Shown in pieces: positions 9,175 to 10,938 of a stretch of DNA of 64,000 bases. Below the pieces are notes generated by a model that was not told the DNA's origin, searched no databases, and worked only from the letters and a program-made list of their open reading frames with translations. The stretch is from Thermococcus henrietii (lineage in GTDB: Archaea; Methanobacteriota_B; Thermococci; Thermococcales; Thermococcaceae). The DNA is taken from assembly GCF_900198835.1 (NCBI RefSeq), contig NZ_LT900021.1, positions 310,001 to 374,000 of the forward strand. Direction: 5' to 3'. A program made the position numbers and the translations under genes. Numbering within the stretch: the stretch's first letter is position 1; each line of letters begins with the position of its first letter.

Positions 9175-10035
9175 CTACTTCGTAACCCCCTTTATGTCAA
9201 CGTGGACAAAGACCCTCTCGACCTCGGGAATCTCCTCTATCCTCTTCTTCACCTCTTCGCTGACGTCGTGGGCTTCTTTCAGGGACAGCCCCGGCGGAAC
9301 TTCTATGTGGAGCTCAACGTGGAGCTTGTTTCCAACGTAGTGGGCCCTTAAATCGTGGATTCCAAGGACGTTGGGAACATTCAGCGCACGCCTCTTGATT
9401 TCCTCACAGATTTCGAAGGATGGAGCTCTTCCGGTCAGGTAGCCCACGTTCTCGAGGATTATCTCAAAGGACACCTTCACGAGGAAGACCGCGACGACGA
9501 GACCAGCTAAAGCGTCGCCGTACTGGAAGCCGAACTTCTGGAGGCCGAGACCTACTAAGACGGCAACACTGCTCAAAACGTCGCTCCTGTGGTGGTAGGC
9601 GTCGGCAATCAGAATTTGGCTGTTGAGCTTCCTGCCCACGTAGACGGAATAGCGGAACATCAGTTCCTTCGCGAGGATTGACACTACAGTAACTCCGAGC
9701 ATTATCGAGTTCACAGTTATGTGCTCCCCATGGAGGAGCCTCTCGACCGAGTCCCTGCCGATTTCGTAAGCCACCACTAGCAGGGCCTCACCAATTAGTA
9801 GGGCCACGAGGGGCTCAAAGCGGGAGTGACCGAAGGGGTGGTCCTTATCCGGCGGTTTTGACGCCACCTTTATGCCGAAGTAGCCGGCGACGCTCGTGAC
9901 GACGTCGCTGAGGGAGTGGACGCCGTCGGAGATGAGGGCTATGCTCGAGTAGATGAATCCCACACTGAGCTTCATGATAGCGAGGAGGACGTTGCCGATT
10001 ATGCTGACCCATATGGGCTTGTAAATCTCCTCCAT
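9175..10035 (-). CDS. Cation diffusion facilitator family transporter
   Basis: 286 residues, six membrane segments in the first 200 residues and a cytoplasmic C-terminal ferredoxin-like domain. Metal-site motifs are present: 'SDGVHSLSDVVTS' in helix II and 'ADAYHHRSDVLSS' in helix V (HD/HxxxD pattern), and a His-containing C-terminal segment 'LHVELHIEVPPG'. Such proteins export Zn2+, Fe2+ or Mn2+ against protons. ATG at 10035 is chosen because AAGGTGAT is its Shine-Dalgarno sequence; the longer frame reaches into the promoter palindrome. Metal specificity is not readable. The stop codon is 20 bases from the 9133-9156 palindrome. Confidence 0.88.
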   Translation of the reverse strand: MEEIYKPIWVSIIGNVLLAIMKLSVGFIYSSIALISDGVHSLSDVVTSVAGYFGIKVASKPPDKDHPFGHSRFEPLVALLIGEALLVVAYEIGRDSVERLLHGEHITVNSIMLGVTVVSILAKELMFRYSVYVGRKLNSQILIADAYHHRSDVLSSVAVLVGLGLQKFGFQYGDALAGLVVAVFLVKVSFEIILENVGYLTGRAPSFEICEEIKRRALNVPNVLGIHDLRAHYVGNKLHVELHIEVPPGLSLKEAHDVSEEVKKRIEEIPEVERVFVHVDIKGVTK

Positions 10036-10146: not shown

Positions 10147-10201
10147 CGGTCAGTCCGTCACTCCCTCGTCACAGCTCGGACAAGGCTGAACTCATCATCC
10201 C
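10147..10201 (-). ncRNA. C/D box guide sRNA, dual guide, predicted 16S rRNA targets
   Basis: Read on the minus strand: box C ATGATGA (10198-10192), 12-nt guide GTTCAGCCTTGT, box D' CCGA, a 4-nt linker, box C' TGACGA, 12-nt guide GGGAGTGACGGA, box D CTGA (10153-10150). The exact 12+12 spacing is the archaeal C/D sRNA rule. A CTTTTTAAGC TATA box (10230-10221) is centred 28 nt before box C, which puts the 5' end near 10200. From memory of conserved 16S rRNA, the D guide pairs over 10 bases with the CCCGUCACUCC segment and would direct 2'-O-methylation of U1406 (E. coli numbering). The D' guide pairs with GCAAGGCUGAA, pointing to about G902. RNA identity strong, targets inferred. Confidence 0.85.
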
Positions 10202-10289
10202 GAAAAAAGTTGGAACGGGCGCTTAAAAAGTTAATCAAAGGGAACAAAAACGTTATTTATTCACAATGCAAAACTCCATCGGTGAGAGA

Positions 10290-10478
10290 ATGGGAAAGAT
10301 AACCGTTGAGCTTAACGTCCCCGATGATGTTCTGAGGAGCATTGACCTCAACAGAATAAGGCGAATGGTGGAGAGGGAGATAGAGATTGAGTACGTGACG
10401 AAGAAGCTTCACGGAAAGTTCCAGAGCATGGACCTGAGAAAGCTCCTCAAAGAGGTAGAGGAAGAATGGACAGTTTAG
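10290..10478 (+). CDS. VapB-type antitoxin
   Basis: 62 residues. ATG at 10290 follows GGTGAGAGA; a TTATTTATT box near 10251 supports a start after the longer in-frame ATG. The N-terminus 'KITVELNVPDDVLRSID' reads as a beta strand and helix, followed by charged helices, as in small archaeal VapB antitoxins that wrap the PIN toxin. It overlaps the next gene by 13 bases in the usual antitoxin-toxin order. Family identity is from size, layout and the PIN neighbour; no specific subfamily is claimed. Confidence 0.7.
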   Translation: MGKITVELNVPDDVLRSIDLNRIRRMVEREIEIEYVTKKLHGKFQSMDLRKLLKEVEEEWTV

Positions 10479-10938
10479 GGGTATTCGTTGACACAAACGT
10501 GATTATAGAACATCTGGCAGGCAATATAGACCTCCTGGAAATACGAGAAAAGTTTAACATTTTATACACAAACAGCATCGTTTTCAGCGAGGCCCTCATG
10601 GTTTACCTAAGGGCACTGACGGGGAAAGGACGTACACACTCAAGCACAATCCGGAACTCATCAAAGGCCATGAATCCGAACTCAGGGAATTTTTGACGTT
10701 CTTCGGGCTTTTCAGGGAGCTTGAGATAAACAGGAGCATTGAAACGCTCGCCGTTGAATACATGGCCAAATACGGGATTCTTCCCAACGATGCGATAATA
10801 CTGGCCACCTGCAAGTTCTACGGGATTAAGTATCTAATCTCCTTCGACAGCGATTTTGAAGAGGCATACGAAGGAGAGAGGATTGAACTGTTGAAATCCC
10901 CTGAGGAAATCCCAAATGCCCTCGAAGAAGGAAAATGA
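10466..10938 (+). pseudogene. VapC-type PIN-domain toxin, frameshifted
   Basis: The first frame gives 'LGVFVDTNVIIEHLAGN' with the first catalytic Asp, and runs to about 10625. The continuation is in a different frame: from 'TYTLKHNPELIKGHE' (about 10631) onward to 'LPNDAIILATCKFYGIKYLISFDSDFEE', which holds the remaining acidic residues (NDA and SFDSDF). Together they give one complete PIN domain of about 157 residues, interrupted near 10618-10632 (GGGGAAAGG) by what amounts to a one-base loss. Either the toxin is dead or the base call is wrong. The antitoxin upstream is intact. Confidence 0.8.

Follow-up and report, generated by a model that had tools for sequence, protein, structure and literature searches.

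The window analysed here is a stretch of 64,000 nucleotides from Thermococcus henrietii (contig NZ_LT900021.1, positions 310,001 to 374,000). On its minus strand, at 10147-10202, lies a small RNA gene that belongs to the Rfam family sR60 (RF01309): cmscan matches it over 10148-10202 with 80.3 bits and E = 2.8e-18, where the gathering score of the family is 50 bits. Directly downstream sits a conserved neighbour, the gene of a cation efflux (CDF) transporter (9175..10035, minus strand; Pfam PF01545 and PF16916). On the other side, reading frames on the plus strand form a vapBC-like toxin-antitoxin pair (10266..10938), beyond which follows a second C/D box sRNA gene, sR1 (RF01152; 10941..10997, minus strand), normally found immediately upstream of sR60. 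We interpret the element at 10147-10202 as the gene of a double-guide archaeal C/D box sRNA, sR60, which guides rRNA methylation and is one half of an ancestral sR1-sR60 tandem, and we put the probability of this reading at roughly 0.9.

Read along the minus strand, the RNA begins with the 5' half of a terminal stem, CGG (10202-10200), a bulged G and box C, AUGAUGA (10192..10198). The 12-nt D' guide GUUCAGCCUUGU (10180..10191) leads to box D', here the variant CCGA (10176..10179), and a GCUG spacer separates it from box C', the variant UGACGA (10166..10171). The D guide GGGAGUGACGGA, likewise of 12 nt (10154..10165), box D, CUGA (10150..10153), and CCG (10149-10147), the 3' half of the 3-bp stem, complete the gene. 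The boxes are ordered C, D', C', D and follow the k-turn consensus of archaeal C/D box sRNAs, with D' one base off CUGA and C' one base off UGAUGA. An earlier note, made from the letters of the DNA, had described a dual-guide C/D box sRNA at this place; coordinates, strand and box spacing were right when we re-read the boxes, and the identity is borne out by the family match, by perfect 10-bp pairing of both guides to the own 16S rRNA, by conservation over 81 genomes and by the presence of the methylation machinery genes.

As a single strand, sR60 folds no better than shuffled sequences (z = 0.38), which is to be expected because a C/D sRNA folds on protein. A chance origin is excluded by the Rfam score together with the occurrence of the RNA in all 81 Thermococcaceae genomes searched, covering 6 of 6 genera. 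In other families of the phylum no sR60 scored above the cut-off, and a dual-guide DNA pattern run against a species-level genome collection matched only records of Thermococcales/Thermococci.

This distribution allows the parts of the RNA to be compared. The 68 copies that could be parsed share one architecture, with guides of 12 nt each in every copy and a spacer of 4 or 6 nt. Counted over 62 distinct sequences, positions 2-10 of the D guide and 2-9 of the D' guide are 100% invariant; the spacer varies in length and sequence, and the flanks drift too. The terminal stem is maintained by compensatory changes, its pairs 1 and 2 being formed in 62 of 62 sequences through GC, CG and AU alternatives (mean of shuffles 42.8, maximum 52). 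Boxes D' and C' vary jointly: 45 of the 68 genomes combine CUGA with UGAUGA, 21 combine CCGA with UGACGA and 2 are mixed, counts that exceed the number of independent changes, since much of the pattern is shared ancestry. At the k-turn position adjoining the tandem G.A pairs, the joint change amounts to a replacement of U.U by C.C. The two mixed forms look like intermediates. Compared with its Rfam family, the window copy is alike in its full-length match, its boxes and its guides, and differs only in the CCGA/UGACGA pair and in an insertion that splits the locus from sR1. sR60 is an already catalogued family and an ordinary kind of RNA, not a discovery.

What do the two guides recognize? Targets were searched in the genome's own 16S and 23S rRNA, and the 2.16-Mb genome has a single detected 16S gene (C1:80869-82356). 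The D guide pairs with CCGUCACUCC and the D' guide with CAAGGCUGAA, each through exactly 10 consecutive Watson-Crick pairs; the N+5 nucleotide is U1357 of the own 16S for D and G851 for D', which an alignment with E. coli rrsB equates with U1406 and G902. Pairing involves the guide nucleotides at +2 to +11 from the box in either duplex, which is the 10-bp geometry of C/D RNP crystal structures. The duplex energies are -21.2 and -17.5 kcal/mol, and composition-shuffled guides reach a 10-bp run including N+5 in 0.2% of cases for D' and 0.4% for D. Nothing as good was found in the own 23S region, where the best run is 7 bp. A published rule asks for at least nine consecutive Watson-Crick pairs to the own rRNA, N+5 among them (PMC4644070); both guides of sR60 form 10. 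The target sequences that the earlier note had given are truly present in the 16S gene of this genome, its 10 bp per guide are recovered as Watson-Crick pairs with N+5 among them, and the N+5 rule leads to its U1406 and, where it had said near G902, to G902 itself.

All 38 Thermococcaceae 16S genes compared carry the two target segments without any difference. In the established secondary structure of 16S rRNA, G902 lies in h27 and U1406 in the decoding-site helix h44. The sequence puts G902 in the closing pair of the h27 GCAA tetraloop (own 16S 845-852, CCGCAAGG), and its pairing partner is E. coli C897, the equivalent of ac4C868 of P. abyssi. The duplexes strongly predict that the D guide would target U1406, in the decoding-site helix, for 2'-O-methylation, and the D' guide G902, in the pair closing the tetraloop.

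The two sites need not be equally firm throughout the family. In Pyrococcus, positions +1 to +3 of the D' guide have drifted (GTTCAGCCTAGG), and G902 is a weaker target call there, because only 8 contiguous pairs remain around N+5. Given that a guide with a mismatch opposite the nucleotide to be methylated is regarded as non-productive (PMC4644070), one may picture sR60 as a genuine C/D box sRNA of which only the D guide, at U1406, is catalytic, the D' duplex anchoring the RNP without methylating G902. We regard this as rather unlikely: the D' Watson-Crick pair at N+5 and its neighbours from +4 to +11 are invariant in 62 of 62 distinct sequences, and the Thermococcus duplex has the full 10 bp.

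Experimental information is available from a 3.2 Å structure of the P. abyssi 30S subunit, where the ribose methylations given are Am373 and Cm1376, along with ac4Cm250 (PMC7005279). The equivalents of U1406 (1380) and G902 (873) are not among them; the numbering used there is offset by 12 from that of locus L112, probably P. abyssi itself, and we cross-checked the offset at Cm1376 = C1402. The list of 2'-O-methyl groups in this structure is probably incomplete. In the accessible literature we found no published 2'-O-methylation at U1406 or G902, nor any text that names sR60 together with Pyrococcus. A RiboMeth-seq data set for P. furiosus is reported to be available from GEO (PMC7758197).

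A double guide on two distant parts of 16S rRNA also invites a structural reading, in which sR60 would mainly be a chaperone, forming a bridge from the 900 region to the decoding site while 16S rRNA folds, with methylation secondary. Its targets are 506 nt apart in the own 16S (851 and 1357) and hence long-range in the sense of Dennis 2015, and for other archaea a chaperone function of such double guides has been suggested (PMC4644070 Table 3; PMC7994747). N. equitans sR17 (A915/U1370) and P. calidifontis sR56 (U894/G1358) resemble sR60 in that their two guides address distant 16S parts, one of them in the 900 region (PMC4644070, a study that did not include the Thermococcales). The nucleotides of sR60 differ, however, and the published candidates bind opposite strands of one helix, whereas h27 and h44 do not adjoin in this way in the secondary structure. 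The analogy is therefore only partial. The strict conservation around N+5 fits methylation equally well, and we give a mainly chaperoning role a low, albeit appreciable, probability.

Several features of the locus bear on the expression of sR60 as a methylation guide. A TATA-like element, TTTTTAAG (10222..10229, minus strand), precedes the gene. The earlier note had placed a TATA box 28 nt before box C; the element is there and the distance is close, since the motif starts 30 nt upstream of the bulged G in front of box C. Nearly all relatives outside Pyrococcus (Thermococcus and related genomes) have such a motif 28-34 nt before the bulged base. Promoters of T. kodakarensis have a TATA box some 23 bp upstream of the start site (PMC4247193), so that transcription of sR60 would start a few nucleotides before box C. 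In T. henrietii a TATA promoter belonging to sR60 itself would then drive its transcription from the minus strand. Genes for fibrillarin, Nop5 (Nop) and L7Ae are all present in the genome; these proteins would bind at the C/D and C'/D' k-turns, and the resulting RNP would pair with 16S rRNA. Work on T. kodakarensis has verified 69 small RNAs of this broad class (PMC4247193). The sR60 of that species, which has the same guides (1626305-1626359), is missing from the circular-RNA table in the main text of PMC9014305, which is not evidence of absence; the same work reports a 16S circle at 2022801-2024382, within which the 16S gene lies (2022864-2024352).

The conserved CDF gene downstream raises the question of whether sR60 could be a cis-regulatory k-turn leader of this gene, instead of or besides a trans-acting guide. 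Where the gene was detected in relatives, it starts 9-131 nt after box D. In some genera (loci L041, L044-L050 and L071) box D ends only 9-22 nt before the start codon, which places sR60 inside the 5' leader of that mRNA, and work on T. kodakarensis has proposed k-turn leaders bound by L7Ae as cis-elements (PMC4247193). The distance between sR60 and the gene is not conserved, however, and in the window the CDF gene starts about 114 nt downstream with a TATA-like sequence of its own. The guide cores are, moreover, the most conserved part of sR60 and match 16S rRNA, all of which leaves a leader function improbable.

Upstream, the window departs from the usual arrangement. sR1 and sR60 are 743 nt apart here, compared with 36 nt in near relatives, because the vapBC-like pair, encoded on the opposite strand, lies in between. 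Three further genomes (G037, G061 and G065) show a gap of about 750 nt, making four with the window, and related antitoxin and PIN reading frames are present in the two whose frames were listed, G037 and G061. The PIN-domain (vapC) gene is split over two frames in the window and intact in another Thermococcus (G037, L017). Could the insertion have left sR60 a degenerate or unexpressed relic, cut off from sR1? The gene has kept an intact sequence with a score like those of related copies, and the TATA motif is retained at the same spacing (CTTTTTAAG compared with CCTTTTAAG). We consider such a decay highly improbable.

Two more C/D sRNAs occur elsewhere in the window. sR47 (RF01131; 1316-1370, plus strand) has a D' guide that pairs over 10 bp with 23S rRNA, and its boxes C (AUGAGGA) and D (CCGA) give a G:C at the variable k-turn position. 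snoPyro_CD (RF00095; 63291-63346, minus strand) pairs over 11 bp with 23S rRNA through its D' guide; a search for a target of its D guide yielded no good one.

The tandem with sR1 is the older context of the gene. In 53 of the 68 parsed loci sR1 ends 11-43 nt upstream of sR60, and among 14 relatives examined with Rfam, 10 were confirmed to have the two genes side by side. Pyrococcus-like genomes have gaps of 11-38 nt, and several of their copies are without an own TATA motif between the genes; on account of these two features the RNAs are probably co-transcribed there.

sR1 brings a further pair of guides to the same rRNA. Its D' guide, GUGAUGGGCGAA, is almost invariant among relatives and pairs with positions 1351-1360 of the own 16S, one U.G pair included, with N+5 on C1353, the equivalent of E. 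coli C1402. Its D guide forms 9 bp with the 3' end of 16S rRNA, next to the anti-Shine-Dalgarno sequence, and has its N+5 on C1533. Judged by these pairings, sR1 would guide methylation at C1402, which shares its decoding-site strand with U1406, and possibly also at C1533 (E. coli numbering) at the 16S 3' end. Cm at the equivalent of C1402 (Cm1376) has been observed in the P. abyssi 30S structure (PMC7005279), an independent experimental result that agrees with the predicted target of the sR1 D' guide. A genome-wide search for a perfect guide to C1402 (GACGGGCGGTNTGA, at most 1 mismatch) hit nothing besides the 16S gene except two stretches that lack C/D boxes and were discarded; the real candidate is sR1 D'.

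Guides to C1402 are also encountered beyond the Thermococcaceae. Other, more distant Thermococci families (L104-L111) have C/D sRNAs with a D guide GAGAUGGGCGGU whose N+5 falls on C1402. Weak RF01309 matches in two other Thermococci families were rejected as sR60 orthologues: they are without a guide to U1406 or G902, and their D guide has its N+5 on C1402. Both sR1 D' and GAGAUGGGCGGU carry a U opposite G1405, a wobble conserved in two different guide RNAs.

The two neighbours thus defined by Rfam as sR1 and sR60 are both C/D sRNAs with a guide on one strand of the decoding site, and they differ in that sR1 has its N+5 on C1402 rather than U1406 and uses its second guide on the 16S 3' end. 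Because the sR1 site (1400-1409) shares nucleotides with the site of the sR60 D guide (1403-1412), simultaneous binding of the two RNPs is precluded; they would occupy the 1400-1412 segment in succession. This shared decoding-site target of the tandem is the more interesting point, and it is what the analysis adds beyond the known sR60 family. One may go further and imagine a conserved module of the Thermococcaceae, made of two RNAs and four guides at the decoding centre, in which mutually exclusive binding of 1400-1412 (for C1402 or U1406), while the remaining two guides hold on to the 16S 3' end and h27, would set the order of late 30S assembly besides methylating. This is speculative, and we think it unlikely.

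Taken together, sR60 yields two predicted ribose methylations, verified against the genome, in the core of the archaeal small subunit near the decoding centre, and the D' guide of sR1 emerges as a candidate guide for Cm1402, a modification common to archaea and eukaryotes. T. kodakarensis is genetically tractable, and loss of one or both sRNAs in this organism could separate methylation from chaperoning.
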